Source: Protonemura montana (lineage: Eukaryota > Arthropoda > Insecta > Plecoptera > Nemouridae). Taken from it: a stretch of DNA of 64,000 nt. This document shows, piece after piece, positions 8,501 to 61,854 of the stretch. The stretch's first letter is position 1, and the number at the start of each line of letters is the position of its first letter. The notes below the pieces were generated by a model. The model was not told where the DNA came from. It worked only from the letters and a program-made list of their open reading frames with translations, and did no database searches. The stretch covers positions 28,110,651 through 28,174,650 of the forward strand of contig OX387603.1 of assembly GCA_947568835.1 (NCBI GenBank), written 5' to 3'. The position numbers and the translations under genes were made by a program.

Positions 8501-11500
8501 ATCTAGCAATCTGCAGCAATAACATCCACAATCCCACTTTTCAAGCACGCTTTACAAATCAAAAGCTCGGTGATGTTCGATGAAATCTCATTTAAAATGC
8601 AAACGCTTGCAATGCACGGGGTTATTTATTACAAGGAACACTAGAAACATTTCAAAAATTGATGCCCTTGTTCTACTCCTTGGAGATCCGTCATTTTCGT
8701 CTAATAAACTAAAATATTCTCAAAAAGCCAGTGTTCAAGTAGCTGAATTGGTTAGAGCAACACCCGCGACAGGTGAAGATCGGGGTCCAAGTAGCTCAAT
8801 TGGTTAAAGCAACACCCGTGACAGGTGAAGATCGGGGTCCAAGTAGCTCAATTGGTTAGAGCAACACCCGTGACAGATGGAGATCGGGATCCAAGTAGCT
8901 CAATTGGTTAGAGCAACACCCGCGACAGATGGATATCGGGGTCCAAGTAGCTCAATTGGTTAGAGCAACACCCGCGACAGGTAGAGATCGGGGTCCAAGT
9001 AGCTCAATTGGTTAGAGCAACACCCGCGACAGGTGGAGATCGGGGTCCAAGTAGCTCAATTGGTTAGAGCAACACCCGCGACAGATGGATATCGGGGTCC
9101 AAGTAGCTCAATTGGTTAGAGCAACACCCGCGACAGGTAGAGATCGGGGTCCAAGTAGCTCAATTGGTTAGAGCAACACCCGCGACAGGTGGAGATCGGG
9201 GTCCAAGTAGCTCAATTGGTTAGAGCAACACCCGCGACAGGTAGATATCGGGGTCCAAGTAGCTCAATTGGTTAGAGCAACACCCGCGACAGGTAGAGAT
9301 CGGGGTCCAAGTAGCTCAATTGGTTAGAGCAACACCCGCGACAGGTGGAGATCGGGGTCCAAGTAGCTCAATTGGTTAGAGCAACACCCGCGACAGGTGG
9401 AGATCGGGGTCCAAGTAGCTCAATTGGTTAGAGCAACACCCGCGACAGGTGGAGATCGGGGTCCAAGTAGCTCAATTGGTTAGAGCAACACCCGCGACAG
9501 ATGGAGATCGGGATCCAAGTAACTCAATTGGTTAGAGCAACACCCGCGACAGGTGGAGATCGGGGTCCAAGTAGCTCAATTGGTTAGAGCAACACCCGCG
9601 ACAGATGGAGATCGGGGTCCAAGTAGCTCAATTGGTTAGAGCAACACCCGTGACAGGTGGAGATCGGGGTCCAAGTAGCTCAATTGGTTAGAGCAACACC
9701 CGCGACAGATGGAGATCGGGGTCCAAGTAGCTCAATTGGTTAGAGCAACACCCGCGACAGGTAGAGATCGGGGTCCAAGTAGCTCAATTGGTTAGAGCAA
9801 CACCCGCGACAGGTAGAGATCGGGGTCCAAGTAGCTCAATTGGTTAGAGCAACACCCGCGACAGGTGGAGATCGGGGTCCAAGTAGCTCAATTGGTTAGA
9901 GCAACACCCGCGACAGGTGGAGATCGGGGTCCAAGTAGCTCAATTGGTTAGAGCAACACCCGCGACATGTGGAGATCGGGGTCCAAGTAGCTCAATTGGT
10001 TAGAGCAACACCCGCGACAGGTTGAAATTTAGACTCCGGTTAAAAGAAAATCAAAGACGGAACAATCAAAAAGACAAGTCCTGTTAATAACGTAGCTAAC
10101 TTCAAATAACTTGGCTAATTTCATTGCATAACTTCACTGTATTACTAAATTTAATTTAATGTAACACTAACCGTACACCATACAACTGGCGATCATGATT
10201 TAACAGAAATGTACTTTCCTATTACTCTAAGAACTTGCATGAGAACATGTACCATGGCTAAGTATGAGAATAAATTAATAATAATAATAATAAAATAGAG
10301 GTGATGTTAACAAAATTTAAAGTGTTTAACTTGACATCAAAATCTATGATCTAACCTGTCGTTGTCCAGGTTTGTGAGTCGCGGCACTTGTCGCACCTGA
10401 ACGGTCTCGGTCGTATCGTCGACGTTGCTGCCGGCGGAAGCTCGTGTGCGGTGCTCACGGAGGACGGCGGCGTGCACGTCTGGGGCTTCGGAATCCTCGG
10501 CAAGGGCCCGGCACTAGAGCGCAGCACTGAGCCCCAACTCATCCCACCCACGCTGCTCGGCACCACACAGTTCAGTCCAGACGTGAGTAACGGAAGGAAA
10601 ACCAGACGCAACTGCGGAGATCCAGGGTTCGAGTCCCCGAAAGTAACGAAATCATTGAGGGGAGGCTTACAAGAGGTATTCTGAAACCAGATGTTGGTAG
10701 AACCGTTGAGTGTGCAGGTTCTAGGTAGAGACAGAAAGTTAATGTTAAACCGTTGAGTGTGCAGGTTCTAGGTAGAGACAGAACGTTAATGTTAAACCGT
10801 TGAGTGTGTAGGTTCTAGGTAGAGACAGAACGTTAATGTAAAACCGTTGAGTGTGCAGGTTCTAGGTAGAGACAGAACGTTAATGTTAAACCGTTGAGTG
10901 TGCAGTTTCTAGGTAGAGACAGAACGTTAATGTTAAACCTTTGAGTGCAGGTTCTAGGTAGAGACAGAATGTTAATGTTAAACCGTTGAGTGTGCAGGTT
11001 CTAGGTAGAGACAGAACGTTAATGTTAAACCGTTGAGTGTGCAGGTTCTAGGTAGAGACAGAACGTTAATGTTAAACCGTTGAGTGTGCAGGTTCTAGGT
11101 AGAGGCAGAACGTTAATGTTAAACCGTTGAGTGTGCAGGTTCTTGGTAGAGACAGAACGTTGATGTTAAACCGTTGAGTGTGCAGGTTCTAGGTGGAGAC
11201 AGAACGTTAATGTTAGACCGTTGAGTGTGCAGGTTCTAGGTAGAGACAGAACGTTAATGTTAAACCGTTGAAGGTGCAGGTTCTAGGTAGAGGCAGAATG
11301 TTAATGTTAAACCGTTGAGTGTGCAGGTTCTAGGTAGAGACAGAACGTTAATGTTAAACTGTTGAGTGTGCAGGTTCTAGGTAGAGACAGAACGTTAATG
11401 TTAAACCGTTGAGTGTGCAGGTTCTAGGTAGAGACAGAACGGTAATGTTAAACCGTTGAGTGTGCAGGTTCTAGGTAGAGACAGAACGTTAATGTTAAAC

Positions 11501-12799
11501 CGTTGAGTGTGTAGGTTCTAGGTAGAGACAGAACGTTAATGTTAAACCGTTGAGTGTGCAGGTTCTAGGTAGAGACAGAACGTTAATGTTAAACCGTTGA
11601 GTGTGCAGGCTCTAGGTAGAGACAGAACGTTAATGTTAAACCGTTGAGTGTGCAGGTTCTAGGTAGAGACAGAACGTTAATGTTAAACTTTCTGCGTGAA
11701 AGATGGCCGCCAAATGACTACTTTACCGACAAAATGCAGAGTACCGAAACACGCCGTTAAGTGGAGCCACTGTCGTATGAAATTTAATTTTGATATTTCT
11801 CGTAGGTTACTCGCTTTTGAGACTTTTCATGCTCATATGATCTCCATCAATGTTTACCTCAACGATTGATATACACGTAAAGATATTCAAAAGCGAGTTA
11901 ACCTACGAGAAACATCGAAATTAAATTTCATACGACAGTGGCTCCACTGAACAATGTGTTCCGGTACTCTGCATTTTTGTCGGTAAAGTAGTCATTTGGC
12001 GGCCATCTTTTACGCAGAAAGTTTAACATTAACGTTCTGACAACTAAACAATTCTAATTTTTTTTCGAGCGGAGATATCCAGTATAAGTAGAGTCATTAT
12101 TATGGGCGCAAACGCTTATTTTCTCCGAATTTGAGTGAGAAATTTGAAGCTTATGCTAATTTAGGTTTGTGCTCTGTGTATTTTGAGAGACAATGTAATT
12201 GATAAGACTTGGTAATCATTATCCTTTGTTAGGTTATGTTGATCATTTCTGCTCCTATGGTTAATCCTACTCAGTGGGCGTTTGTTTGTTTGAATAAGAT
12301 CACTCCCAATATATGGCATTTGAGCAAAATAGTTCACGTCTTCCTGCACCAGCCTAGAAGGTGGCGTCAGTTAAAACTCTCAAGTCCAATCAATACACTG
12401 GTTTATACTGTAAAGAGATGTCAAATTATAAATCTTTTGAAAATGATGAACCTTTCTGGGAAGCTTTTTACTGTATTTTGTTTTGATTCAGTCCAATTCT
12501 TTTTCCTCTAACAGAGCTGGGAGTGAACCTAGAGTTCGGTGACTGTCTACGTGTTAACTGAAACAAGTTTTTGCCGTTGACAGGTAAGAGTGACGAGCAT
12601 AGCGGCAGGTCTCAGCCACATGATGGCTGTCACTTCGACGGGCGATGTTTTCGCGTGGGGTCGCAATCGATGGGGCTGCCTCGGCTTGGGCCACGATCGC
12701 GACCAGTTCTTCCCGCTGAGGGTAGCGCTTGGGGCGGCGGCACTAAAAGTCTCGCTCGGTGTTGACCATTCCGTGGCGCTGTGCAGGCCGTACGTTTGA
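5246..12799 (+). CDS. RCC1L: RCC1L, mitochondrial RCC1-repeat protein (six exons, 450 aa)
   Basis: Exons 5246-5599, 5793-6042, 6368-6549, 7466-7603, 10370-10582 and 12584-12799 join with matching phases (0,1,0,0,0) and GT-AG borders into 451 codons including the stop. The product is a seven-bladed RCC1-type propeller: repeated blade signatures such as VYAWGLADHGALG, GCGINTDSQLGY, GNNAYGQCG, CGWAADGQTGRG, GWGNSEYSQL and AWGRNRWGCLGLG are visible. The basic, Cys/Ser-rich N-terminus (MLNTLKCLCKCNKYSICF...) fits a mitochondrial presequence. Length is close to human RCC1L (about 464 aa), which is known to act in mitochondrial ribosome assembly and OPA1-related functions. Introns 4 and 5 are swollen with repeats. 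I see no frameshift or missing blade, so the gene is probably functional. The alternative, another RCC1-family protein, is less likely given the presequence and the C-terminal VDHSVALCRPYV ending. Confidence 0.92.
5793..6042 (+). CDS. RCC1L: RCC1L exon 2
   Basis: Acceptor CCCTGAG, exon starts GTG TAT GGC (VYGCG), donor GTGAGT after TCTG (phase 1). Encodes blade 2 and the GRAHLAVVTDVDGV segment. Confidence 0.9.
6368..6549 (+). CDS. RCC1L: RCC1L exon 3
   Basis: Acceptor TTCTGCAG; two bases complete the split Gly codon, then SHMVNVVPSLEG. Ends GTG CAG with donor GTGCGC (phase 0). Contains the blade signatures CGQDHTMLVTEDGVVYTCGW. An upstream in-frame extension to 6283 is intronic. Confidence 0.88.
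7034..7405. repeat. Foldback MITE in RCC1L intron 3 (arms about 160 bp)
   Basis: The two halves are near-perfect inverted copies: the left arm runs from CACTAGTTTTAACAAAAAC, the right arm ends GTTTTTGTTAAAACTGTTAGTG. The spacer around 7196-7230 is short. A related half copy sits at about 3035-3125. Confidence 0.85.
7466..7603 (+). CDS. RCC1L: RCC1L exon 4
   Basis: Acceptor TTTTCAG, then GGC GAT GTC GTC; donor CAG|GTCAGG. 46 codons, phase 0 at both ends, with CVLALTESGQVFGWGNSEYS. It lies between a foldback MITE upstream and the SINE-head array downstream. Confidence 0.9.
7604..7679. other. Intron sequence between exon 4 and the SINE array
   Basis: AT-rich intronic stretch leading to the ATTGATGCC tail end of the SINE described next. 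No gene content. Confidence 0.5.
7680..8282 (-). repeat. tRNA-derived SINE, reverse orientation, head expanded to about 10 x 52 bp
   Basis: On the minus strand each unit reads GTCCAAGTAGCTCAATTGG then TTAGAGCAACACCCGCGAC, then AGGTGGAGATCGGG. TAGCTCAATTGGTTAGAGCA is a canonical tRNA D-arm / Pol III box A. The distal end (minus strand) carries GGGTTTGAGTTCCCG, a box-B/T-loop-like sequence, followed by the TAGGCATCAATTTT tail. The proximal end has the family's 5' segment CTCAAAAAGCCAGTGTCC. Each unit lacks a full cloverleaf, so these are not tRNA genes. Confidence 0.88.
8290..8640. repeat. Inverted-repeat core between the two opposed SINE arrays
   Basis: The sequence around 8312-8370 (CCCTACGCATTGCAAGCG then TTTGCAATTTCAATCAGAT) is the imperfect reverse complement of 8578-8632 (ATGAAATCTCATTT then AAATGCAAACGCTTGCAATG). 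The whole block 7.68-10.03 kb is therefore a large inverted structure with unequal array lengths on its two sides. Confidence 0.7.
8652..10030 (+). repeat. tRNA-derived SINE, forward orientation, head expanded to about 25 x 52 bp
   Basis: Begins with the SINE 5' segment (GTTCTACTCCTTGGAGATCC, then CTCAAAAAGCCAGTG) and continues as about 25 head-to-tail 52-bp units carrying the box-A-like TAGCTCAATTGGTTAGAGCA. Variation is mostly GGTGGAG/GATGGAG/GGTAGAG and CGCGACA/CGTGACA. It ends at CGACAGGTTGAAATTTAG without the normal tail. It lies in RCC1L intron 4. Confidence 0.9.
10370..10582 (+). CDS. RCC1L: RCC1L exon 5
   Basis: Acceptor GTTGTCCAG, then GTT TGT GAG; donor GAC|GTGAGT. 71 codons with AAGGSSCAVLTEDGGVHVWG. 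It is isolated between the 52-bp SINE array and the 47-bp array. Confidence 0.9.
10583..10704. other. Start of RCC1L intron 5
   Basis: Short intron segment after the exon 5 donor. It contains GGTTCGAGTCCCCG (10627-10640), a box-B-like motif, but no partner box A was found. Confidence 0.4.
10705..11685. repeat. 47-bp tandem array, about 21 copies
   Basis: Unit: GTTGAGTGTGCAGGTTCTAG, GTAGAGACAGAACGTT, AATGTTAAACC. Copies differ by few substitutions; one copy lacks two bases. The last 19 bp of the unit (CAGAACGTTAATGTTAAAC) are identical to the terminus of the foldback element that follows directly. Confidence 0.92.
11667..12042. repeat. Foldback element with about 160-bp inverted arms
   Basis: Left end CAGAACGTTAATGTTAAAC, then TTTCTGCGTGAAAGATGGCC; the right end is its inverse (GGCCATCTTTTACGCAGAAA, then GTTTAACATTAACGTTCTG). 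The arms also share CGTATGAAATTTAATTT and CTCGCTTTTGA. The loop lies at about 11840-11885. No coding capacity. Confidence 0.85.
12043..12583. other. Rest of RCC1L intron 5
   Basis: AT-rich intron sequence with no recognised element. The 91-codon open frame at 12236-12511 shows no family resemblance. Confidence 0.4.
12584..12799 (+). CDS. RCC1L: RCC1L exon 6 (last)
   Basis: Acceptor CGTTGACAG, then GTA AGA GTG ACG; ends with TGA after RPYV. Encodes the last blade AAGLSHMMAVTSTGDVFAWG. Confidence 0.9.
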   Translation, partial: VRVTSIAAGLSHMMAVTSTGDVFAWGRNRWGCLGLGHDRDQFFPLRVALGAAALKVSLGVDHSVALCRPYV

Positions 12800-22849: not shown

Positions 22850-24032
22850 CTTGTCCATCACAGCCTGGTCATCAACTTCATGATTTCTTTCCATCACAGC
22901 CTGGCGATCAACTTCATGATTTCTTTCCATCACAGCCTGGTCATCAACTTCATGATTTCTTTCCATCACAGCTTGGTCATCAACTTCATGATTTCTTTCC
23001 ATCACAGCCTGGCGATCAACTTCATGATTTCTTTCCATCACAGCCTGGTCATCAACTTCATGATTTCTTTCCATCACAGCCTGGCGATCAACTTCATGAT
23101 TTCTTTCCATCACAGCCTGGTCATCAACTTCATGATTTCTTTCCATCACAGCTTGGTCATCAACTTCATGATTTCTTTCCATCACAGCCTGGTCATCAAC
23201 TTCATGATTTCTTTCCATCACAGCCTGGTCATCAACTTCATGGTTTCTTCCCATCACAGCCTGGTCATCAATTTCATGATTTCTTTCCATCACAGCCTGG
23301 TCATCAACTTCATGATTTCTTTCCATCACAGCCTGGTCATCACCTTCATGATTTCTTTCCATCACAGCCTGGTCATCAACTTCATGATTTCTTTCCATCA
23401 CAGCCTGGTCATCAACTTCATGATTTCTTTCCATCACAGCCTGGTCATCAACTTCATGATTTCTTTCCATCACAGCCTGGTCATCAACTTCATGATTTCT
23501 TTCCATCACAGCCTGGTCATCAACTTCATGATTTCTTTCCATCACAGCCTGGTCATCAACTTCATGATTTCTTTCCATCACAGCCTGGTCATCACCTTCA
23601 TGATTTCTTTCCATCACAGCCTGGTCATCACCTTCATGATTTCTTTCCATCACAGCCTGGTCATCAACTTCATGATTTCTTTCCATCACAGCCTGGTCAT
23701 CAACTTCATGATTTCTTTCCATCACAGCCTGGTCATCAACTTCATGATTTCTTTCCATCACAGCCTGGTCATCAACTTCATGATTTCTTTCCATCACAGC
23801 CTGGTCATCAACTTCATGATTTCTTTCCATCACAGCCTGGTCATCAACTTCATGATTTCTTTCCATCACAGCCTGGTCATCACCTTCATGATTTCTTTCC
23901 ATCACAGCCTGGTCATCACCTTCATGATTTCTTTCCATCACAGCCTGGTCATCAACTTCATGATTTCTTTCCATCACAGCCTGGTCATCACCTTCATGAT
24001 TTCGTTCCATCACAGCCTGGTCATCAGCTTGT
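22850..24032. repeat. 36-bp minisatellite, about 33 copies, directly downstream of the GPCR stop
   Basis: Unit on the plus strand: CATCACAGCCTGGTCATCAA, CTTCATGATTTCTTTC. On the minus strand it encodes DDQAVMERNHEV in perfect 12-residue register and is open for over 400 codons; the plus strand is also open. Variants are limited to a few positions (GTC/GCG, AAC/ACC, CCTGG/CTTGG). The minus-strand frame differs by one register from the receptor, whose stop is at 24052, so it lies in the 3' UTR unless a splice or frameshift joins them. Confidence 0.92.
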
Positions 24033-24051
24033 CTAACTAATTGCCGTAACT

Positions 24052-25904
24052 TTAAGACCTTCGCGTAAGTTTGCTGACCGACTTGCTGATCAACTGCAAC
24101 CAATTCTTCCTCGTAGATTCCTGTAATACCACGAAGAAGAGTGACAAAGTGAAGATGTGCGTGGTGGCCGTCATGAGAAACAAATACTCGAAGAGGAAGT
24201 CGCTGACGACGACGCGCTCCTCGGCGAAGATGTGAAAGACCCAGGTGAACCCGAAGAGAAAAAAGATGAAGAAGCTGGTCTTGAGCTTGTTCAACTGCTC
24301 GGCCTTCTGGTTCTTGCTGTGTCGCGTTATTTCCCCCTCGCCATCTTTCTTAAAGATGTGCATCAAAATCTTGGCGAAGATGCAGGCGTTGACGAACAGG
24401 ATGAATCCTGCCGGTCCCTGGACCGTCACCTGGAAGACGATTCCCTCGGGATAGCAGTATCCACGGTCGAACCTGTCGGTCTGGTAGAAGCCGGGGTTGC
24501 AACTCAGCAGGATGATGATAGGCACTAACGGTACGCCCCAAGCAAACGCTGACACCTTCAGGATAAGGTGAGAGGTCGCCTTGGCACCGGCCACAGTGGT
24601 CAGCCTCTTTAGCTGTAGGCAGGATAACACCAGCATCCAGAGGAACATGGCGAGGAACGAGTAGTGACGTAGCACGCCGTAAACTAGACAGACAACGCTC
24701 TCTGTCGTCATGCGCACAAAGCTGGCGGTGAAACCGAGAACTAGGTTGCAAGTCAGTGCTAGTACCATGTGCAGGAGGATCTTATGCCCCGTGTTTTCCC
24801 GCCATTGTTTAAAGAAGATGGCCGTGCCAAAGATGGAACCCAAACCAAGTACTGACAGAAAACACTCGATGACAGCAGCTGTCATTAGACCCGGTTTGTC
24901 CTTCAAGAAGTCTGTCCATGGGTTGTTGACAAATGCTTGCTCATCATTTGCATAGCCTTTCTTCAAGGCAAACCTTGCGATCGGAACGCCGTCCTGCATT
25001 ACAAAGTACTTGCCGCTGCAACGACAAGCGCTGAAATTACTCATACCACTGAACAACATCCTGGAGCTCTCACGCGACCAATCACGGAGGTCCTTGTTCC
25101 ACGCGACGCAAGATAAATAGTTATAAATTGAGCCAGCCATTCGGAATTGATCGTACGTGATGTCGACGTGGTGGTTGGCGTAAGACGAAAACGACCACGC
25201 AGACACCTCGTTCTTGCGAGGAAACATCACGGTCACTTCTGGATATTGTTCATTGTAGTTCTTCTTTAGAAAATAGGGATCAGAAAGCGTATTTTTCCAG
25301 ACAACGACAAAGGCTACACGCGTGTGAGCTTCCAAAAGCCTCGCCGAAACGTCCAACGCAAACGGGGCTAATCTTTGCGTCGTCGGCCTTCTATTCACCG
25401 TGATGTTGTCACGCCCACCTATTTTTTTGGGATCGAAGTCTAACGTGAACCCCTCAACCGACTCACTGCCTTCTAGTTCGGCAACTACCAGGAAGATGTG
25501 TAGCTCTGATGACACAATAAAGTCAGTTTCTAGGATGAGATTTGCAGTGATGATGATGAGGTCAAGAATGATACGTTCGGACAACTCGTTGTGTATTGTG
25601 ACCTCGCGTTCGACAACGCGTGCGACCTCCTGGAAAGTGTTTGTGTCTACAGAAGTTGTGGTGAAGTTATTTAACACTTCCTCATGGTGACGTTTGATGT
25701 CAGATGCGATCAGGAACTGAATGTAATACTCCTCGTTGATAAACTGCTCGTCGAGAGTGCAGCTCTTATTCCAGACGAGCTCCCACCTGGAGATCCTTGG
25801 AAGCCATTCAGCTTGGAAGATCTCGTAGTTGAAGCGACAGTCGCGGCGGCTGATGGCACCAGTTGTCGCGTTTGTGAAGAATTTATAATAATTCTCTTCG
25901 TCAA
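24052..25904 (-). CDS. GPCR exon 4: GAIN/GPS-like region and 7TM domain
   Basis: Acceptor TTTTTTGTTTTAG, then TTGACGAAGAG; 616 codons plus stop. The sequence before residue 335 (DEENYYKFFTNATTG and onward) is in frame and belongs to the exon, although an open frame starting at 25677 would omit it. Contains the GPS-like Cys cluster and all seven membrane segments, then ends in a basic 15-residue tail. Confidence 0.9.
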
Positions 25905-28900
25905 CTAAAACAAAAAAAAAGTACTTTCCGACCTTCTGCTAATTGGTCGAGTTTGTGAAGAATTGATAATAATATGATAATAATAAAAAATATGCTTACA
26001 TGCCTAATTATTAACAAAGCAATGCGGTTTGCAAATACAACGCTTGGTCAGGTATTGGATAGGTGACCATCATACACATGACCAGTTCTGTTAGGGTCAT
26101 TCCATATCAAGTGCCCACACTCAAAACCTTCACTATCTCAGAACTTGACGAAATTTTCAGGAGGGTTAGAACACCGGAAATAAAAAATCTCTTTTAAAGT
26201 TTTTTTCCATACGCCTAGCGGTTTGCCCGTGGCAGGGGATGGAAAAATAAAATATTTTACTTTTTGCCCCGCACGGCCATTCACTATATTCACTCTAGCG
26301 TTTGAACAAATAAACTTAAAACGATGGGATTAGTTCTAAAATGATAATCGTGCTTTCATTAACAAGAAAAAATGCATAAATTGCTTACTTATCAAGTTTA
26401 GGGGTAGAAAAAATCCACCCTTAAATTTCAACCCTTAATAACTCGAGAAGTAATTTTTTTTTTTTTTTTTGTTTTGTTGTGAAGCATCTCCTGTCTATTA
26501 TCTTTCCATGAAAAAAAAATTAATCATTAACAGCCGTATGATCAGAAGTTATGAGATTTTTATTGTATAGATGTGTATGAATTTAGAAGTGCTTTTGCTA
26601 AATAGTTTGTTGAGCATGAACCAAATTGAATTCAGAAGCATTCGATTATGCTAAGTTTGTCATAGCATAAATAAAGCTTGAAAAGATTTGAATTTGGGAT
26701 GGAGTCGAGCAATTAAAATTTTATTATAAGGATGTGATATTTTTGGGCTTTGTGCTATAAACATGATAATATGTGGCTCTGGTCACGATACTAGGTCTGT
26801 GTTTCTGCCGTGCATTATGACCACGGATCTGACGAAATTCATATTTTACCTACTTCTATTTAAAGAATCCCACCACGAACACGTGCAGCCCTTGCTACCT
26901 GTTTCTCTTTTCAACCCTTATGGCCGGAAGTTTAGCCGTGAGACAGCGAATTCAGTTGTTTCTGCATTGGTTTCTTGGTCAGTCGCAAAACACTTAGCTC
27001 AGTGCAAGTAGACGAGTGATTCGAAGTTTTCTTTGCATTATTTTTGTGCGTCGTGAATTGAGGGGTGTTAATAATACCGTTGGAAGTGTCTTGTGAACAT
27101 ATTTTTAATTAATAGCAATAGTATAGTAATAGCTAGTTTATTTAATAGTTATAATCACAGCGTTTAGTTTTGTATATTTTATGTAATTTAATCATGGACT
27201 CGTTTACTCGAGCGAAGTGCTGCAATCCTTTTAAACACGTTTCCCACACACAGCTGAAGTCTCTCCTCAACGTCCAGCCGTGGATGATTGAAAAGATTTC
27301 CTCGATTCCAGTAGGAAGCAAAATCTGTGCCAAATGTAGGAAAGATTTAAATAACTACGTAAAACCAATCAGCAGCGACTCTCCAGTGACGACGACGACC
27401 TCCAGCGATGGCGACAACTCGCAGCCCGGCTGCAGTGGTGCAAACGCCGAGAGTCAAGCATATTTTTTCCGACAAGACGCTGCTTTGTCTAACATCAACG
27501 TGGGCTTGGCGGAGCTAGGGCAATCGCCCATTGTTAAGAAAAAGTTGGCGCAATCCAGTTATCCCAGGAAGAAATTGAAGAAACTCGAAGGTGCGCTTAA
27601 AAGAACCACTACCTCCGACGCTGAAAGCGACAGTGGCCAAGATTCAGCTGATGGTCGCGAAATGATTAATCAGCTGAAAGAGAAGTTTCACTCGTCCACA
27701 TCCAACAGCGAGAAAGTGCATGTTCTAACTGTCCTCCCGAAGAGCTGCTCTGTCCGGCGAACAGTGGCAGAGTTTCAAGCGTCAGAGCGCATGGTCCGCA
27801 AGGCAAAGAAGCTCGTCCTGGAAAAGGGAATTTTGTCAACCCCGAATCCAAAGCCAGGAAAAACAATTGACCGAGCCACAGTTGACCGAGTAAAATCTTT
27901 TTACAATTCAGACGATGTGAGCCGAGCCATGCCGGGCAAGAAAGACTATGTTTCCGTCAAGGAGGCGAGCGGCACTCGAGTGCACATCCAGAAAAGGCTC
28001 GTACTCTCAAACCTTAAGGACCTCCATACCCAATTCAAGGACAAATTTCCTAATAAAAAAATAGGATTTTCAAAATTTGCAGAGCTGCGGCCGAAGAACT
28101 GTGTGTTGCCTGGTGCCAGTGGGACTCATTCGGTGTGCGTGTGCACTATCCACCAAAACGTCAAGCTAATGATCATCGGTGCCGACTTGACGAAGTTGAC
28201 AGTGGACCAATCTTATCCGATAACATCTTACCACGACTGCCTTGAGCAGTTGGTCTGCGACAGTCCCCTCCCCGAATGCCATCTAGGCGAGTGTGAGGAG
28301 TGCCCGGGCATCGAGCCGTTAAAGGAGCGCCTCACGCAACTGCTGGACGACGAAATGGTGGACAATGTTATCTACAAGCAGTGGGAGAGCACCGACCGAT
28401 GCACCCTGCAAACGCACATCGATTCATCCGAGGAATTCGTGGACAGTTTTTGTGCAAAATTAGTTGCTCTGTGCCGCCACTCTTTTATTGCTAAAAAACA
28501 ATCTTCGCACCAATCGGACATCAAGTGCGGTCTCCTGCCCGGCGAGTTTTTGGTGATCTGTGATTTTGCCGAAAACTATGCGTTCGTGCTACAAGACGAG
28601 GCCCAGGGGTTCCACTGGAACAATGCGTCCGCCACCATCCACCCCTTCGTGGCATATTACAAAGAGGGCGGGGAAGAGCGCCACATCAGCTTTGTTGTAA
28701 TTTCCGAGAGTTTGATCCACAACACTGTCGCAGTGCATCTATTCATAAAAAAACTCGTGAGCTTTTTGCACAATAAATTTCAGACCATAAAGAAGATGTT
28801 CTTTTTTTCTGATGGGGCAGCCTCGCAATATAAAAATAGGAAAAATTTTGCCAACTTGTGCCACTATCAAAGAGACTTTGGGGCCGACGTGGAGTGGCAT

Positions 28901-31900
28901 TTCACGGCGACGTCACATGGGAAGAGCGCCTGCGACGGCGTCGGAGGGACGGTCAAGCGGCTGGCAGCGCGGGCGAGTCTTCAGCGCCCCTACGAGTCGC
29001 AAATAATAACACCCCGGCAACTCTTCGATTGGGCGGTCGAAGCCATCCCGACCATCAACTTCACATTCGGAACTATTGAGGAGCACCAAGACACAGAACA
29101 GCTGCTAGCCACACGATTTGCGTCATCCCGGCCAATTCCCGGCACGCAAAAACTGCATTGCTTCGTACCCGTGTCTGAGCACTCAGTAGCCACGCGGGTG
29201 TTCTCCTCCTCGCCGTTGTTCGAAGAAGCCAGAGTGATAGGTCAGAGTGAAACGAAGAAATGAGTGAGTAAAAAGAATCTTTGTAGTACTTACACACAAT
29301 TTTTAAACTGAAAAATTATATAATCTATCAATTTACGGGTGAATTGCATGGACCATGCTAACAGACTTGCAGAAACACAACTAAATGCACACACATTTAT
29401 ACAATAAAAATCTCATAACTTCTGATCATACGGCTGTTAATGATTAATTTTTTTTTCATGGAAAGATAATAGACAGGAGATGCTTCACAACAAAACAAAA
29501 AAAAAAAAAAAAATTACTTCTCGAGTTATTAAGGGTTGAAATTTAAGGGTGGATTTTTTCTACCCCTAAACTTGATAAGTAAGCAATTTATGCATTTTTT
29601 CTTGTTAATGAAAGCACGATTATCATTTTAGAACTAATCCCATCGTTTTAAGTTTATTTGTTCAAACGCTAGAGTGAATATAGTGAATGGCCGTGCGGGG
29701 CAAAAAGTAAAATATTTTATTTTTCCATCCCCTGCCACGGGCAAACCGCTAGGCGTATGGAAAAAAACTTTAAAAGAGATTTTTTATTTCCGGTGTTCTA
29801 ACCCTCCTGAAAATTTCGTCAAGTTCTGAGATAGTGAAGGTTTTGAGTGTGGGCACTTGATATGGAATGACCCGTTAGGGAGAGAGGTTGGAGGGATGAA
29901 AGTTAAGCAACACTGAGCCGGGTCAGATATTGGATAGGTGACCTTCATACACATGACCAGTTCTGTTCGGGTGAGAGGGTAGAGGGTTGAAAGTTAAGCA
30001 ACACTGCGCTGGGTCAGGTATTGGATGGGTGACCACCGTACACGTGGCCAATTATGTTCAGGAGAGAGGTTGGAGGGATAAAAGTTAAGCAACCCTGCGC
30101 TGAGTTAGGTATTAGATAGATGACCATCATACACATGACCAGTTCTGTTTGGGAGAGAAGTTGGAGGGATGAAAGTTTAACAAAACTACCCTGGATGAGG
30201 TAATGGATAGGTGACCATCATACACATGACAAGTTCTGTTCGGGAGAGAGGTTGGAGGGATGAAAGTTAAGCAACACTGCGCTGGGTCTGGAATTGGGTG
30301 GGTGCTCACCAAACACATGACGAGTTCTGTTCCAGTGGACTTGTAAAAAGTTCCACCACAGCAATGCCACCAGACCAGTGCCACCAGACCAGTGCCACCA
30401 GACCAGTGCCACCAGACCAATGCCACCAGACCAGTGCCACCAGACCAGTGCCACCAGACCAGTGCCACCAGACCAGTGCCACCAGACCAGTGCCACCAGA
30501 CCAGTGCCACCAGACCAGTGCCACCAGACCAGTGCCACCAGACCAGTGCCACCAGACCAGTGCCACCAGACCAGTGCCACCAGACCAGTGCCACCAGACC
30601 AGTGCCACCAGACCAGTGCCATCAGACCAGTGTCACCAGACCAGTGCCACCAGACCAGTGCCACCAGACCAGTGCCACCAGACCAGTGCCACCAGACCAG
30701 TGCCACCAGACCAGTGCCACCAGACCAGTGCCACCAGACCAGTGCCACCAGACCAGTGCCACCAGGCAAGTACCACGAGGCCAGTAGTCAAAAGAGTGCG
30801 TCGTTAAACCATATCTTAAACTTTATGTCACTTTCATGACGTGGTTAAGCGCAGAATAAGCGATTGGCTCTGTACAAAAATCTGTTTGATTTATCGTTTG
30901 TGCAGATTATAAAAAAAATATTACTTTTTTTTAAAGTGCTGTGCAAGATGACAAACCTACAATCAATCAGGAAAACATGTAAATCCGTCACCAGAACAAA
31001 TTGTAAAGCAATTTACGTGGCAAATCTAGCTGTGGCCACAAAGTCACGGCTCCATCGACATCGATTGTCTCTCCTTCGGGACAGAAGTTAACGTCCTCGA
31101 CCCGCATCAGGTAAGTGTCGTTGAAGACGCTGGTTTTAGTGTCGCGGCCGATTGGTATCGAGCTTGAGATGTGACTGTTGACTCGGAACTCAATGTTCAA
31201 GTGTTGGGCTTCGTCCAGGCTCTCGTTGATGTACATGATATAGCAGAAACTACAGACAAGTTCGGACAGATCCCACACGAGCTTGCTCTTTCTCTCTTGG
31301 GTAAGTTTGTCTTTCACGTTGCCGTCAGTTCGAGTCAATTGAAATCGGAACCTGTTGCTAGCTGTCAGGTCGTCAACTGGCAAAAAATTAATACGAAAAT
31401 TATCATTATCAAAAAAAATGTGTTCGTTCCTCCGAACTCCCGGCCATACACATGACCAGTTCTGTTCGGGAGAGAGGTTGGAGGGATGAAAGTTAAGCAA
31501 CACTGCGCTGGGTCAGGTATTGGATGGGTGACCATCATACACATGACTAGTTCTGTTCGGGAGAGAGGTTGGAGGGATGAAAGTTAAGCAACACTGCGCT
31601 GAGTCAGGTACTGGATGGGTGACCATTATACTTATGACCAGTTCTGTTCAGGAGATAGGTTGGAGGGATGAAAGTGGTTCCCTTGGTAATCTTCGACATG
31701 AACAGGCTGCGTGCTATCAGTGTTGTGACTTATCTTCATAAAATTACTTAGATCATCTTTTTCATCTATTATCTTTATCTAGATAATATTTTGTGTCGTT
31801 ATCTTTAACTAGATAATAAATTAGTTATCTAAACGCAATGTTTAGATAATAGATAACTTGTTCTGTAATTGTAACTGAACACCTCTGAACTTTGACTGTC

Positions 31901-34900
31901 CAGACATTTCGCAAGTCATTACAGCTCAGACTTCAATCAAGGTTCAAAAAAAATATATTAATGTATATATAATAATGTTTGTATTTCGCGTGATAACAAG
32001 ACAAAATCCGCCGCTTCAGAATCAGAAGAGCCACTACTTCTGTCAAGTAATGTGTAATCTTGAGAGTAATGCCTCGTGATTTGTAAATCTGGACCCTCTA
32101 TGTAAAAACATCTACCTATTGGAAGTCAGGATGCGGTCCCACAGCATTGGTATTCAACGAAAATACTTTCCAATATTCTAAAATCCATTTCAAATAACAA
32201 AAAAAATCATCTATTATCCAAAGAAAATTATCCAGATACTTTATTTTATCTATTAGATTTTAGATAGATTATTTTTTTGAGAATTATTTATTATCTTATC
32301 TAGATCAAAAAAATTCCCAATTATCTTTATCTAGATCAAAAAAAAATCTAGGAACTACACTGCGTGCTAGCAAGTCACAATGTTTGCTGATGATACCAGT
32401 CTTCTGATAAAGGGTATATCAACTGATTGCCTGCTAGAGAAGGCTAACTCTGCAATTAAAGACCTTTCAGAGTGGCTTAAATTAAACCAGCTTTCCCTCA
32501 ATACCAAAAAAACTAAATTGATTCACTTTCAAACGAAAAACACTAGATCTATTTCACAAGATAAACTTCAAATTTCTGCTGGCAACGATGTTTTGGAATT
32601 ATCTAGCCATGTAACTTTTTTGGGACTTGAATTAGATAAAAATCTTGATTGGGCAATGAACATTACTAGACTAAAAAATAAACTTTTAAAACAATGTTTT
32701 GCCTTTCGTATTTTGAAAAGGGTCGTCCCAGCTAACTCATTAAAATCTATCTATCACGGACTATTTGAGTCTCTAATGAGCTACGGTATAATATTGTGGG
32801 GTAATGCTTCAAACGCCAAATATATTTTTTCTCTACAAAAAAGAGTCATTAGAATTATTCTTCATTTGAAACCAAATTCAACGTGTCGCAAGCAATTTAA
32901 AAATCTGAAAGTAATGACGATGCCAAGCATTTATATTTTCAAACTCTTAATTTTTATCAAACTTAACGCTAACTCTTTTCCCACCAGTAACCATAAGCAT
33001 CATACGCGTAGCAGGGGTGGCTTTGAAGTACAAAAAGATTCTATGGCACTAACTCAAATTAAACGTCAAACTAAACTCTCTGGCCTTATGCTATTTAACT
33101 TGCTACCAAATAATTTAAAAATATCAAACTTCAACACCTTTAAGCTATCAATTAAATCATTTCTCATTGAAGGAGAATTTTATTCTTGCGACGAATTTAA
33201 ATCGGCCCTCATTAAATATAATAACCCAGTTTTTAAATTAACGACGTGATTTATCTTGACCTAATTAAATTGCATAAGAAATATATCTGTAACCATCAGA
33301 AATGAAAGATAGTTTCGATGTTACTTTTAACGATGACGTAAGAAGTATACACCATTGGCAACATTGATTTTTACACCATTGGTTTTTACACAAACTGTAA
33401 ATGTAACATATGTAACTAGGATTAGTAACAATTGTATTTAGTATTAGATACATTTAGTTATTTGTTAAACAATTTACTTTGTAAACAAACAAATAAAATC
33501 AAAATCAAACCTAATTATTTACCCACATTTTGACCGATTCCACAGGATCCTATGAAACAACAATGCGTCGTTTAACACCTTCCATTCGGCCTACATTGTC
33601 AGAAACTATATCTATGCTTACAGTGAACTTGTTTCTTGTAACGTGGAAACACAACGTAGTCAAGTTGGCACAAGGCGCAGGAGAACATGAAGTCGCTGCT
33701 GACATTTTCAACCACCCCCGATGTCGGATTCATGGCTTTCCACGTGGACTTGTTCGCCTGCAAGCCAAGAGGTACGTTTGTAAAACTGAAGCTGGACACC
33801 TTATAAGCTTGTATTGTTTGTTTAAGAAAAAAAAACTTAATATCAACCCAAACATCATTTGATTTATAAAAATCTCTGTCTTAACACTTCTGTTGAACGT
33901 TCTGCTAAGCAAACTTCGGATTTTCAAGAGTGATAAGTCTGAGTGACACGAAATATGCGTTATTACAAAAATCTTTGAAGCACAAACAATTTTTGAATTG
34001 GAAAATTATATAATCTATCAATTGACGGTTGATTTGTATGAACCATGCTAATAGACGTGCTGCAGAAACACAACTAAATGCACACACATCTATATAATAA
34101 AAAAATTATTAAAAATGATTAAAATAATGATCAATTTTATTTATAATGAAGAAATAATAAGCTGAAAATGCTTAAAAACAAAAACACGTTAAGAAAAAAA
34201 ATTATTTGTTGAAATGTGTTGACATTTAAGGGTAGATTTTTGCCACCTCTAAACTTGATAAGTAGGGGTCGGTCTAGTTGTCTCAAAATCAGTTACTTTA
34301 TGACAATACCGAGTCAATGTTCGATAATTTATGTCAAAATATTTTGCCACTTTTTCCTGCAACACAAATTGAGCAGCGCGTAACATGACATCGGGTGTTA
34401 CCAGCCACTGATAAGATTTTTTTTTGACAAACTCGTTATCAACTCGTAATTGGTAAATTTTTGTAAAGTGGTTCTGTTAAAAGTAAAAAAAAATCAATTA
34501 CTTACAAAACAAACAAAATGAACTTATACTGAAAGCTACTTCTGGGGTTTTGTCATTTGTGACAACTAAACCCATCATCGACTTTCAGCTTTACATTTAA
34601 AATAAATATACTTCTCATGCATAAATTCATCATATAAGAAAAATTATAAACAGACAATATGTTTGCTTAAAAGAATATAAATATGCACATTCAATTAGAT
34701 GGATACTTTTACGAAAAGTATGAAATAACTTAGCTGCAGAAAAGTTACTAACCACCTGTCAAAACAAACAATCTCTTCCAGGAGTGTGAATTATGCACCG
34801 AAACGAATGAAATTTTCAAAATAGTAAGATATTTAGACGTCGAAGCTGCCCGGATCAGTATTTTGCTTCTGGTACCATTTGGAGTCGAGATTGGAACACT

Positions 34901-37154
34901 GAGACAACTAGCCCCTGAGACTTTTAGACCCCTCCTACCCTTGGAGTCGAGATTTGAACACTGAGACAACTTGCCCCTGAGACTTTTAGACCCCTCCTAC
35001 CCTTGGAGTCGAGATTTGAACACTAAGACAACTTGCCCCTGAGACTTTTAGACCCCTCCTACCCTTGGAGTCGAGATTTGAACACTAAGACAACTTGCCC
35101 CTGAGACTTTTAGACACCTCCTACCCTTGGAGTCGAGATTTGAACACTGAGACAACTTGCCCCTGAGACTTTTAGACCCCTCCTACCCTTGGAGTCGAGA
35201 TTTGAACACTAAGACAACAACTAGCCCCTGAGACTTTTAGACCCCTCCTACCCTAAGCAATTGATGTATTTTTTCTTGTTGATATAAGCACGATTATCAT
35301 TTTAGAACCAGTCCCATTCTTTTAAGTTTATTTGTTCAAACGCTAGAGTGATGGAGTGAATGGCCGTGCGGGGCAAAAAGTAAACTATTTGGTTTTCTCA
35401 TCCCCTGCCACGGGTAAACCGCTGGGCGTATGGCAAAAACAATTTAAAAGGAATTTTTATTTCCGGTGTTTTAAACCTCCTGAAAATTTTGTCAAATTAT
35501 GAGATAGTGAAGGTTTTGAGTGACGGGCACTTGACATGAAATGACCTGATAGTGAAGGTTTTGAGTGACGGGCACTTGATATGGAATTACCTGATAGTGA
35601 AGGTTTTGAGTGACGGGCACTTGACATGAACTGACCTGATAGTGAAGGTTTTGAGTGACGGGCACTTGACATGGAATGACCTGATAGTGAAGGTTTTGAG
35701 TGACGGGCACTTGATATGGAATGACCTAAAAGTGAAGGTTTTGAGTGACGGGCACTTGACATGGAATGACCTAATAGTGAAGGTTTTGAGTGACATGCAC
35801 TTGATATGGAATGACCTGATAGTGAAGGTTTTGAGTGACGGGCACTTGACATGGAATGACCTGATAGTGAAGGTTTTGAGTGACAGGCACTTGATATGGA
35901 ATGACCTGATAGTGAAGGTTTTAAGTGACGGGCACTTGACATGGAATGACCTGATAGTGAAGGTTTTGAGTGACGGGCACTTGACATGGAATGACCTGAT
36001 AGTGAAGGTTTTGAGTGACGGGCACTTGACATGGAATGACCTGATAGTGAAGGTTTTGAGTGACGGGCAATTGACATGAACTGACCTGATAGTGAAGGTT
36101 TTGAGTGACGGGCACTTGATATGGAATGACCTGATAGTGAAGGTTTTGAGTGACGGGCACTTGATATGGAATGACCTGATAGTGAAGGTTTTGAGTGACG
36201 GGCACTTGATATGGAATGACCTGATAGTGAAGGTTTTGAGTGTCGGGCAGTTGACATGGAATTACCTGATAGTGAAGGTTTTGAGTGACGGGCAGTTGAC
36301 ATGGAATGACCTGATAGTGAAGGTTTTGAGTGACGGGCACTTGATATGGAATGACCTGATAGTGAAGGTTTTGAGTGACGGGCACTTGATATGGAATGAC
36401 CTAACAGAACCTTTTATAAATACAATATCTGACTCTGAAAAAAAGCAACAGTTCGTATATAAAGAGAAAATCTTAAGACATTTCTGTACTGTTCCATTGG
36501 ATTTTTTTCTTTGTATTTGTCTCTATATAAATCATTTTATTCACTGGAAACTGAATCTTAGCATTTCTGTTTCACGTTCTGCTAAGCCAACTTTTAGTAG
36601 TAACATCGGTGGCCACGTGATGGAGCTTGCGGCGGTCCTTTTTAACAAACCGTTAAAATTAAATAATTGTGACTCTAAATATCGACACATGTTTATCAAT
36701 CATTGTTGTTAAAAATATCGATTTAGCGTAAACCAGTCTCAAATACGAGTAAACTGCGAGAAAAAACGAAACGAATTTTCTTAAAAACCCTAAACGACGA
36801 TGAAAACTAACTTCACATTCTGTGGCAAAACTTGTGTACTGCGTTTGTCGAAGATATGAAAAAAAAAATACTCACGAGCCATGACCAACTAAGATGTTCC
36901 TTCGACTCATCGTATGGTACCAACTGGTCGCCACAAAGCGCTCTCTCCTCTTCGTTCAGCTTCTCGAAATCCAACAAGATATTTAAGTGAAGTTTATAGC
37001 AAGCCTTAGACGCTTCTGTCCAGTTAACCGACTTCTCAAGGTCAATCTTGACCGCGCCGAGCTCCTGCAGATGTTCCACACAACGTCCGACCTCCGATTG
37101 ACATGGATCGGCAAAGATGGCTGCCAAAAGCACGACCAGAACTTCGGTGTGCAT
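24052..37154 (-). CDS. Adhesion-type GPCR with C-type-lectin-like N-terminus (four exons, 875 aa)
   Basis: Exons 37154-36876, 33757-33622, 31376-31017 and 25904-24052 have GT-AG borders and compatible phases (0,1,1), giving 876 codons including the stop. Residues 1-20 are a signal peptide (MHTEVLVVLLAAIFADPCQS). Residues 25-140 resemble a C-type lectin domain (NWTEASKACYKL, later FSCALCQL). Then comes a long extracellular, GAIN-like part. Residues 524-555 hold a GPS-like Cys pattern (CVAWNKD, later CRCSGKYFVM) without the HLT/S cleavage triplet, so self-cleavage is doubtful. Seven membrane segments span about 598-852, with the family mark HYSFLAMFLWMLVLSCLQL in TM3. The cytoplasmic tail is short (LQLISKSVSKLTRRS). 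Ligand and pathway cannot be read from the sequence. The introns are packed with transposons and arrays. No stop or frameshift is seen, so it is probably functional. Confidence 0.85.
26035..26093. repeat. 5S-rRNA-derived repeat, fragment left of the transposon
   Basis: GGTCAGGTATTGGATAGGTG, then ACCATCATACACATGACC, matching the 3' half of the 91-bp units at 29.88-30.30 kb. The long-TIR transposon interrupts the unit at GTTA. Confidence 0.75.
26094..26570. repeat. Left terminal inverted repeat of the 3.78-kb transposon
   Basis: Inverse of 29396-29873; includes a poly(T) run at 26457-26470 mirrored by poly(A) at 29498-29513. Confidence 0.92.
27194..29263 (+). CDS. Transposase of the long-TIR element (about 689 aa)
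   Basis: An uninterrupted frame fills the transposon between the arms. I prefer the ATG at 27194 (MDSFTRAKCC) over 27170 because it begins directly with the N-terminal zinc-finger-like segment (CCNPF, then GSKICAKCRKDL, residues 9-60). A basic, serine-rich region follows. The C-terminal half has candidate catalytic acidic residues: VICDFAENY (about residue 454), FFSDGAASQYKNRKN (about 538) and SHGKSACDGVGGTVKR (about 575), the arrangement of a DDE/D nuclease. A Cys cluster HLGECEECPG lies between. I know similar uncharacterised proteins with the SDGAASQYKN block in invertebrate genomes, but no biochemical function. No frameshift or stop is seen. Confidence 0.85.
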   Translation: MDSFTRAKCCNPFKHVSHTQLKSLLNVQPWMIEKISSIPVGSKICAKCRKDLNNYVKPISSDSPVTTTTSSDGDNSQPGCSGANAESQAYFFRQDAALSNINVGLAELGQSPIVKKKLAQSSYPRKKLKKLEGALKRTTTSDAESDSGQDSADGREMINQLKEKFHSSTSNSEKVHVLTVLPKSCSVRRTVAEFQASERMVRKAKKLVLEKGILSTPNPKPGKTIDRATVDRVKSFYNSDDVSRAMPGKKDYVSVKEASGTRVHIQKRLVLSNLKDLHTQFKDKFPNKKIGFSKFAELRPKNCVLPGASGTHSVCVCTIHQNVKLMIIGADLTKLTVDQSYPITSYHDCLEQLVCDSPLPECHLGECEECPGIEPLKERLTQLLDDEMVDNVIYKQWESTDRCTLQTHIDSSEEFVDSFCAKLVALCRHSFIAKKQSSHQSDIKCGLLPGEFLVICDFAENYAFVLQDEAQGFHWNNASATIHPFVAYYKEGGEERHISFVVISESLIHNTVAVHLFIKKLVSFLHNKFQTIKKMFFFSDGAASQYKNRKNFANLCHYQRDFGADVEWHFTATSHGKSACDGVGGTVKRLAARASLQRPYESQIITPRQLFDWAVEAIPTINFTFGTIEEHQDTEQLLATRFASSRPIPGTQKLHCFVPVSEHSVATRVFSSSPLFEEARVIGQSETKK
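29396..29873. repeat. Right terminal inverted repeat of the 3.78-kb transposon
   Basis: Inverse of 26094-26570, ending GGAATGACCC followed by GTTA. Confidence 0.92.
29878..30305 (+). repeat. 5S-rRNA-derived 91-bp tandem units (about 4.7 copies)
   Basis: Each unit contains GAAAGTTAAGCAACACTG, TATTGGATGGGTGACC at the spacing of the 5S rRNA gene's internal control region (box A AAGTTAAGCAAC, box C TTGGATGGGTGACC). The 5' third of 5S is missing and replaced by GTTCGGGAGAGAGGTTGGAG. These are 5S-derived repeats, not functional 5S genes. They sit in the GPCR's third intron. Confidence 0.85.
30364..30772. repeat. 14-bp minisatellite CCACCAGACCAGTG, about 29 copies
   Basis: Very homogeneous array next to the last 5S-derived unit. 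Three long open frames per strand result from the 14-bp period without stops (for example DQCHQTSATRPVPP) and are artefacts. Confidence 0.95.
31017..31376 (-). CDS. GPCR exon 3: extracellular stalk
   Basis: Acceptor TTTTTTGCCAG, then TTGACGACCTG; donor CCAC|GTAAAT; 360 nt, phase 1 in and out. Encodes DLTASNRFRFQLTRTDGN through FCPEGETIDVDGAVTLWPQ. It is bracketed by 5S-derived arrays on one side and the 14-bp array on the other. Confidence 0.8.
31441..31672 (+). repeat. 5S-rRNA-derived 91-bp units (about 2.5 copies), right of GPCR exon 3
   Basis: Same unit as 29878-30305, in GPCR intron 2. The series is therefore interrupted by exon 3 and the 14-bp array. Confidence 0.85.
31673..32369. other. 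AT-rich intron with ATCTAGATAA-type simple repeats
   Basis: Recurrent TTATCTAGATAA / TATCTAGATCAAAAAA motifs at 31750-31860 and 32200-32350. No gene. Confidence 0.5.
32370..33512 (+). pseudogene. 5'-truncated non-LTR retrotransposon (reverse transcriptase C-terminal half)
   Basis: A 289-codon open frame (32380-33249) starts at the catalytic MFADDTSLL motif and continues through KTKLIHF, VTFLGLELDKNLDW, SYGIILWGNAS and LFNLLPNNLK, the usual order in Jockey/CR1-like ORF2 proteins. The N-terminal endonuclease and most of the RT fingers are missing, as expected from 5' truncation. The 3' UTR ends in AATAAAATCAAAATCAAA. It lies in GPCR intron 2, opposite to the gene. The frame is intact, suggesting a fairly recent insertion. 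Confidence 0.88.
33622..33757 (-). CDS. GPCR exon 2: end of lectin-like domain
   Basis: Acceptor CTCTTGGCTTGCAG, then GCG AAC AAG; donor CACT|GTAAGC; 136 nt, phase 0 in, 1 out. Reads ANKSTWKAMNPTSGVVENVS, then FMFSCALCQLDYV. The reading frame and both splice sites agree with exons 1 and 3, which is the main support for so short an exon. Confidence 0.75.
34267..35261. mobile_element. About 1-kb non-autonomous element inserted at TA, with amplified right terminus
   Basis: It interrupts AAGTA...TAAGCAATT of the host relic; comparison with the intact transposon arm (AAGTAAGCAATT) shows the empty site and suggests a TA duplication. The left end GGGGTCGGTCTAGTTGTCTC and the inverse of the right end (GGGGTCTAAAAGTCTC, then CTAGTTGTCTCAG) are imperfect inverted repeats. 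No coding sequence. Confidence 0.6.
34867..35258. repeat. 62-bp tandem array (about 6 copies) of the element's own right end
   Basis: Unit: TTGGAGTCGAGATTTGAACA, CTGAGACAACTTGCCCCTG, AGACTTTTAGACCCCTCCTAC. Period exactly 62 (TTGGAG at 34941, 35003, 35065). The first and last units carry CTAGCCCC, the inner ones CTTGCCCC. Confidence 0.88.
35530..36402. repeat. 45-bp tandem array (about 19-20 copies) of a transposon terminus
   Basis: Unit (inverse) AGGTCATTCCATGTCAAGTG, CCCGTCACTCAAAACC, TTCACTATC equals the first 45 bp of the long-TIR transposon. GACATGG/GATATGG alternates between copies. Because 45 is a multiple of 3, the array is open in several frames (SARHSKPSLSGHS); these are artefacts. 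Confidence 0.93.
36403..36875. other. GPCR intron 1, segment next to exon 1
   Basis: No element identified. The stretch TTTCACGTTCTGCTAAGCCA (about 36572) recurs as AACGTTCTGCTAAGCAAAC at about 33896, so the relic's two flanks may share a short repeat. Confidence 0.4.
36876..37154 (-). CDS. GPCR exon 1: signal peptide and start of lectin-like domain
   Basis: ATG at 37154; 93 codons; donor CTC|GTGAGT, phase 0. Encodes the signal peptide then CVEHLQELGAV and VNWTEASKACYKLHL, the W-x-x-A-x-x-x-C pattern typical of C-type lectin domains. The open frame continues 20 codons into the intron. Confidence 0.8.
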
Positions 37155-39984: not shown

Positions 39985-40195
39985 ATCAAAAATTAATGCC
40001 CAAACGTGGACTTAAACCCCAACCTCCACCTGTCGTGGGTGTTGCTCTAACCAATTGAGCTACTTGGACCCCGATCTCCACCTGTCGCGGGTGTTGCTCT
40101 ATCCAATTAAGCTACCTGGACACATAATTTTTTAATATGATTTTAGCGCATCTGATGAGAATGACGAATCTCCAAGAAGTAGAACCACAAGGCTG
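39985..40195 (-). mobile_element. tRNA-derived SINE, complete, with two head units
   Basis: On the minus strand: 5' segment GTTCTACTTCTTGGAGATTC, CTAAAATC, then two 52-bp tRNA-like units (box A TAGCTTAATTGG and TAGCTCAATTGGTTAGAGCA), then the box-B-like GGGGTTTAAGTCC and tail TTTGGGCATTAATTTTTGAT. It shows the ordinary form of the family expanded at 7.7-10 kb. Confidence 0.82.
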
Positions 40196-45542: not shown

Positions 45543-46259
45543 TCACCCGGGAAACAAGTGTGAACTCTTCTTACAAAAGAAAACTACTATTAAGTCGAGA
45601 TCTTTGAGTCGAGCTTGGACCCCGGTGTAAGCTCCACTCATAGTTGCGGCTCCATCATAACCTTGGCCACGACAGTTGTCAAAACTCATTCCTCTTTTCT
45701 CAAGATTTTCTAAAACCAAGCTTTTGATCCCAGCTGCTGATTGGTCTTCCACAACCTCGAAACCAAGGAACGATTCATTGATTTTTATATTTGTTGGTTT
45801 CCCTTGATCGTCTTTTTCAATGCTGGTGTAACGGAAAACAGCACTCATCTGATCAGTCTTCAATTTACTATCCTGTGTTGTGTCTACTATTATAGAAAAA
45901 AATAGAGCTGCTTTGATGGACTCAGATAAATCACTAGGAATTACAAGAGTTATTAGCTCGTTCTGGATGGCAGGGCTAATATATCTGATTGATCCTTTGG
46001 GCATTTCCATTATTTGCTTCATCACTTGGTCGAACATCGATAAAACTTCAAGAATAGACGTGAAAACCCCTCGCTTAGCTGAATCGACAGCTTCTAGGTG
46101 GCCTCTGAAAGGCAAATTATTTTTTGCAAGTGTAAGGAATGTTGCAAGTATCCGATGCAAAGCATTTTGCCAGAATATTTTCTCGGCTTGAATTTCTATT
46201 TCCATGCTCTCTACGAAAGTTGATTTCCTGAACTGCTCGTAAACTAGGCAGGCGATCAA
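45543..46259 (-). pseudogene. hAT transposase, central part (ZMYM1/DUF4371-like)
   Basis: 238 codons: FWQNALHRILATFLTLAKNN, LPFRGH, later SIIVDTTQDSKLKTDQMSAV (first catalytic Asp region) and FDNCRGQGYDGAATMSGAYT (second), GVQARL. This order is characteristic of ZMYM1-type hAT proteins. The frame stops at 45543, before the C-terminal dimerisation domain, and an N-terminal part is on a separate frame, so the copy is inactive or relies on unrecognised introns. Confidence 0.8.
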
Positions 46260-61696: not shown

Positions 61697-61854
61697 AATG
61701 AAGGAAATGAGCGAATGAGCGTAGAATGCAATTTTAATAAGATTTCATCTAAATACAACGAATCCAACGTCAAATTGGAGTTATTCGAGTTTGACAGGTT
61801 GTGTCGTGATATAGCGTCACTAGAATCAGAGTGACTGTGAGTATTCACAGCCTC

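Follow-up and report, generated by a model that had tools for sequence, protein, structure and literature searches.

Reviews count the terminal inverted repeats of DNA transposons among the sequences from which tandem repeats derive (PMC12628747, PMC9659126). Among the closest described systems, the foldback element Tetris of Drosophila virilis, a DNA transposon, harbors tandem repeats, TIR-220, that grew within its terminal inverted repeats and gave rise to satellite arrays (PMC4079207). The F-subfamily of Galileo, of the P superfamily, similarly has tandem repeats in its terminal repeat, with a copy number that is unequal between the ends of one and the same element (PMC3573991). Xmix, Xstir and other tandem repeats derived from miniature inverted-repeat transposable elements (MITEs) likewise illustrate the passage of a part of a transposon into tandem repeats; in the case of Xstir the source is the terminal repeat according to the table of one review, whereas according to another it might be internal MITE sequence (PMC9659126, PMC12628747). 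Here we consider a 64,000-nucleotide stretch of the genome of the plecopteran Protonemura montana (contig OX387603.1, positions 28,110,651 to 28,174,650; hereafter the window), in which a decayed relative (the relic) of an intact 3.78-kb transposon has an array of 45-bp units at its right terminus. In our judgment the chances stand about even that this minisatellite arose out of that terminus and within it, with its first duplication set by the cleavable end of the element.

Tandem Repeats Finder reports the array with a period of 45 bp, 20.0 copies, 95% matches, 0% indels and a score of 1611 (Table 1), the copy number coming from one sequence. Minisatellites are made of head-to-tail units of roughly 10-100 bp, and the head-to-tail 45-bp units of this array lie within that range. 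Each of the 20 units corresponds to the intact element's terminal 44 bp plus one extra base (38-42 of 45 columns identical), so that the repeated sequence is homologous to a terminus present as a single unit at each end of the intact element, as is characteristic of tandem repeats derived from DNA transposons. When up to three mismatches are allowed, the 16-mer GGTCATTCCATGTCAA has 22 occurrences in the window, of which 20 are in the array and two at the ends of the element at 26094-29873, against a mean of 0.69 and a maximum of 4 in 100 shuffled controls. The relic also retains a right arm, with positions 3487-3779 of the intact element matching 35254-35546 at 88.8%. Thus, the claim of a prior sequence-only reading, that about 20 head-to-tail copies of a transposon's own terminus lie on the right arm of a relic, is borne out. 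The arm does continue into the array, with one correction as to position: read inward, the flank is followed by unit 1 through unit 20 and then by arm position 46, so that the array is contained in the element and the outermost unit forms its terminus.

The phase of the array with respect to the terminus is of particular importance. No base is common to the end of the flank and the end of the unit, nor is any common to the start of the unit and its inner continuation; hence, the phase cannot be shifted. On the other hand, the first base of the unit is A in all 20 units, as against G in the intact element, and consequently the terminus and the phase are fixed only to within 1 bp: either the terminal base of the relic has mutated or one base of the flank belongs to the unit. 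The proposal that the unit starts exactly at the transposon terminus accordingly holds with a tolerance of one base. Just outside the terminus we observed that an identical 9-bp sequence, GTTCTGTTA, when read inward, lies beyond the left end of the intact element (26085-26093) and at the right end of the relic (36402-36410); it occurs three times on the two strands of the window (at 26085, 34471 and 36402), and a target preference is a possible reason for its presence at both flanks. Separately, a 38-bp direct repeat (33879-33916 and 36556-36593; pairwise search, E 3e-9, 87% identity) brackets the relic, 10 bp off its truncated left end. This could be the templated filler of a repair event or an older duplication.

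A second array in phase with a terminus was found 250 bp from the first, in an element that is unrelated to it in sequence. The relic is interrupted by a 989-bp insert and aligns with the intact element on either side of it, with one extra TA and with TA at both junctions, which would be as for a TA-targeting element. A pairwise search of the insert against the intact element recovered only matches of A/T runs, and we therefore call the elements of the insert and the relic unrelated in sequence. At the right terminus of the insert, whose family has the terminus GGGTAGGAGG..., Tandem Repeats Finder reports an array of period 62, with 6.0 copies at 96% and a reported end at 35254; the outermost unit is 65 bp long and the other five 62 bp, and a single base (A) is common to the end of the flank and the end of the unit. 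For the left end of the insert the same program reported no array. This left end shows an inverted similarity of 14 out of 15 bases to the innermost 62-bp unit; none of 2000 single-base shuffles reached the score, the unit having been picked by eye. Further, the innermost and outermost units display CTAG while the four middle units have CAAG, a pattern in keeping with a seed duplication and a subsequent expansion of the middle units. As the 62-bp array lay outside the choice made by the sequence-only reading, it provides a semi-independent test of the phase idea.

Table 1. Coordinates in the window of the transposons, relic parts and arrays discussed in the text
Feature	Position	Strand	Remarks
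47-bp array, 21.1 copies	10701..11688	+	straddles left edge of a palindromic element; unit comprises 28 bp from outside and 19 bp of the element end
Intact cut-and-paste-type DNA transposon, 3780 bp	26094..29873	+	ends GGGTCATTCC...GGAATGACCC; GTTA abutting both sides
Putative transposase open reading frame, 689 aa	27194..29263	+	without Pfam-A family
Relic, inner part	33927..34264	+	corresponds to intact element positions 3138-3488, 75.8% over 355 columns
Second element, 989 bp, inserted in relic	34265..35253	+	TA on both flanks; ends GGGG...CCC
62-bp array, 6 copies	34879..35253	+	unit ends exactly at right terminus of the 989-bp insert
Relic right arm, inside of array	35254..35502	+	corresponds to intact element positions 45-294, 222/251 columns identical
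45-bp minisatellite, 20 copies	35503..36402	+	unit equals element-terminal 44/45 bp; outermost copy is the relic right terminus
Outer flank of relic	36403..36410	+	read inward with the last array base it is GTTCTGTTA, same as left flank of intact element

Transposases of the DDE/D kind free the 3' end of their element, and comparable cleavage at this locus would supply a fixed outer edge for a duplication. Specifically, a nick freeing the 3' end of the element, together with a chance nick on the opposite strand 45 (or 62) bp inside, would open a break whose two 3' overhangs are complementary. Filling these in and joining the ends would then duplicate the terminal stretch, placing the outer edge of the duplication at the terminus and its inner edge anywhere, and the two tandem copies would subsequently expand by slippage or unequal exchange with some homogenization. 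It is in this sense that we infer the seeding duplication to have been set by the cleavable end. No function of the array is implied thereby. Abortive transposition was one of three routes offered by the sequence-only reading; recast as an aborted excision with break fill-in, it would fit both junctions. Breaks with complementary 3' overhangs, 50 bp among those tested, do yield small tandem duplications via fill-in and non-homologous end joining (NHEJ), and the fill-in can be near-complete (PMC8355091). In the same study the duplications due to polymerase theta show microhomology much more frequently than the majority of those from wild-type cells (PMC8355091). An outer edge at the very tip is, in light of these results, allowed by the fill-in model rather than predicted by it.

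Were the phase of a terminus-overlapping duplication random, a simple count gives a chance of about 0.03 for the 45-bp unit to fall within 1 bp of the terminus and of about 0.04 for the 62-bp unit to fall within 2 bp. Both coincidences, tolerances included, would be required if these were instead ordinary minisatellite births in an array-rich genome, with slippage or unequal exchange having started at a terminus by chance on two occasions. The window is indeed rich in arrays, with 27 Tandem Repeats Finder rows (some of them for one and the same array) and several arrays alongside which no transposon end was recognized; moreover, the 47-bp array straddles the edge of an element with a 3-bp microhomology. 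However, the edges of the 45-bp unit have no base in common, and we regard an ordinary birth as unlikely. Given that the 45-bp edges share no base and the 62-bp edges just one (A), slippage at the end, another of the routes offered earlier, is disfavored for the first duplication, though it fits the later expansion.

The third route, tandem insertion, is considered here as insertion of the transposon into itself. Here a copy would have entered its own end in direct orientation between positions 45 and 46, creating two tandem terminal units; the rest of it would then have been lost and the dimer expanded. Copies inserting beside the original are described as a route to tandem dimers in a review (PMC9659126, which cites McGurk and Barbash 2018), and an event of this kind would yield the exact terminal phase with no need for microhomology, explaining the 45-bp junction equally well. 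Yet the implied target in the 45-bp case is TATC as opposed to the GTTA at the one known insertion, and the far end that is expected to bear the target duplication is missing. In the 62-bp case the internal terminus is preceded by AA, as opposed to the TA flanking the insert; self-insertion is thus not a simple account of both arrays. We therefore give it a low probability and consider it less likely than break fill-in.

The unduplicated state of the terminus is preserved in the intact element. It has the terminal inverted repeats and short target duplication (GTTA) of a cut-and-paste transposon, this being seen in one copy only; its inverted arms (26094-26598 and 29369-29873) are 505 bp long and 98.6% identical (99% in another comparison). 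Sola2-type elements also generate a 4-bp target duplication (PMC3627910), a shared trait that is insufficient for membership, and we do not file the element as Sola. Its 689-aa protein recovered no transposase family in a Pfam-A search (best match E 0.15, to an unrelated family) and no relative in a search of the PDB (best match E 0.83). Nevertheless, acidic residues in the stretches ICDFAENY, FFSDGAASQYKN and HGKSACDGVGG are placed compatibly with a DDE/D core, from which we infer that it is probably a DDE/D-type transposase. A single-sequence AlphaFold model, with a mean pLDDT of 41.0, is too poor to use for confirming this core; the order of strands and helices in it could be RNase H-like, which we do not use as support. 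When the transposase was sought in viral contigs, nine stretches fit a pattern and none was confirmed as a relative, a eukaryotic transposon not being expected there; similarly, the terminal 21-mer had no occurrence in viral contigs or in bacterial and archaeal genome contigs, collections that are unlikely to contain such an element. A decayed third copy of the transposase lies on the minus strand at 52484-53404 (two tblastn pieces, E 1e-6 and 3e-4, in a search against the window alone). Just beyond it is a 41-bp array of TGCCA units (52309-52436), where no terminus was recognized by eye.

The tandem terminal units might alternatively be a foldback-type arm that is inherited in the family and perhaps selected for providing extra transposase sites. 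Galileo and Tetris carry tandem repeats in their terminal repeats, and secondary binding sites have been reported or proposed for them (PMC3573991, PMC4079207). Their repeats, however, are inside the arm and not at the tip (PMC3573991, PMC4079207), and the intact element has single terminal units with no trace of a second: when the terminal 44 bp are aligned without gaps to positions 45-543, at most 21/44 bases match. Tandem Repeats Finder reported no row in either arm of the intact element, and terminal repeats built of tandem repeats, as expected of foldback elements, were not found there. We accordingly hold an inherited arm to be very improbable.

The sequence of the individual units bears on the expansion that followed. 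Twelve different sequences are present among the 20 units, whose mean pairwise identity is 95%, as compared to the 88% identity of the relic arm to the intact element, which we count in favor of a later expansion. The sequence-only reading took interspersed GACATGG and GATATGG variants as a sign of more than one round of amplification. The variants are indeed interspersed at a ratio of 11 : 9 among the 20 units, but their order is no different from random (12 runs as against a shuffled mean of 10.9; P 0.40). More than one round is nonetheless supported, because rare variants are common to non-neighboring units, namely 4 and 19, 8 and 18, and 12 and 14; such sharing calls for a later event, be it duplication, exchange, conversion or recurrent mutation. 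No higher-order structure was detected, the identities at lags 1 to 14 not rising above those of shuffled orders (lowest P 0.144, at lag 10). As these values are within the shuffled range, we claim no blocks or period in the array.

Several observations weigh against a birth of the array at a cleaved terminus. The first array was picked for its phase by the sequence-only reading, leaving the 62-bp case alone as a semi-independent test, and the phase of the first is itself uncertain by 1 bp owing to the A in place of G. There are only two such arrays, in one locus and 250 bp apart, and a common local cause may underlie both. The left end and the target duplication of the relic have been lost, and nicking by the transposase at this site is putative. 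Duplications of nearly the whole overhang are those of polymerase theta, with more microhomology, and by implication most of those from wild-type cells are shorter (PMC8355091). Finally, the 47-bp array straddles the edge of its element and has AAC, a 3-bp microhomology, at the edges of the duplication, such that it looks like ordinary microhomology slippage. The element in question (11670-12039) is a palindrome with arms 85% identical; no clear target duplication was seen at its edges, so that only the palindrome defines its terminus. We had considered this array as a third terminus-phased case and discarded it on account of the straddling. Three arrays here have a unit that includes an end of an inverted-repeat element; two of them are terminus-phased and one is not. 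Terminal phase is hence not universal, and while the repetition of the pattern in a second, sequence-unrelated element speaks for the earlier suggestion that termini seed arrays, the 47-bp case counts against its generality. A broader proposition, that transposon ends are hot spots of minisatellite birth, in which cleavage of the terminus and fill-in of a staggered break would duplicate the terminal 40-60 bp in unrelated families, always with the terminus as outer edge, before slippage takes over, is tentative and, in our view, somewhat doubtful.

The remaining arrays offer further context. Reading of the flanks of the 13-, 36-, 14-, 7- and 52-bp arrays recognized no transposon terminus, the shorter rows lying outside this reading. 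The 52-bp unit is tRNA-like and forms two inverted arrays, 7701-8222 (10.0 copies) and 8736-10022 (24.8 copies), separated by 0.5 kb. Upstream sequence is shared by a two-copy relative (40016-40121), and Rfam tRNA matches are found at 7682-7754 and 39997-40069. We did not count the 52-bp arrays as terminal, given that a longer element encloses them and the sequence upstream of them is similar. Nor did we count a 91-bp array (29874-30332 and 31445-31675), which abuts both ends of the intact transposon merely as its insertion site: it continues on both sides, is unrelated to the ends, and is followed 16 bp further by a 14-bp array (30349-30785). We had presumed a likeness of the 91-bp unit to 5S rRNA, which Rfam does not support: no 5S match was obtained in 29800-31700 at E up to 1. 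The 36-bp array (22790-24103) is stop-free on the minus strand and reads as a 438-aa repetitive protein with a 12-residue repeat; a left-handed helix domain is matched below threshold, probably on account of composition.

Elsewhere the window is eukaryotic-looking, with RCC1-repeat exons, a secretin-type receptor, one reverse transcriptase above and a second below the Pfam cut-off, and many arrays. A large palindrome (15748-18180) has arms at 15748-16872 and 17038-18180 that are 94% identical over 1163 columns around a short center. A 365-bp direct repeat (59020-59384 and 61336-61700, 96% identical, starts 2.3 kb apart) possibly represents the two ends of a retroelement. A minus-strand reading frame (45546-46259) matches DUF4371 (E 3e-17), which we take to be a domain found in hAT-like transposases.

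The initial duplication behind a minisatellite usually escapes view; here one window offers the source sequence, a relative without the duplication and the exact edge. If the phase rule were to be true genome-wide, the birth of tandem repeats would be tied to transposon cleavage. Comparison with the known systems brings out what is distinctive. In Tetris, with 610 repeats on 69 contigs, the 220-bp units are not at the tip but have a flanking domain on their outer side and another domain on their inner side (PMC4079207). In Galileo, the repeats are approximately 264-467 bp from the end (101-196 bp in one copy) and measure about 210 bp each, with two or three copies present (PMC3573991). The small tandem duplications at 3'-overhang breaks resemble the present case in size range and in that sequence homology is unnecessary; however, they were produced with a Cas9 nickase in mouse and human cells, with no transposase involved (PMC8355091). 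In the literature searched, with most subscription papers outside it, we found no description of a terminus-exact array. Taken together, transposon terminal repeats are already known as sources of tandem repeats, and, as far as this literature goes, the exact terminal phase in two sequence-unrelated elements is a new detail.

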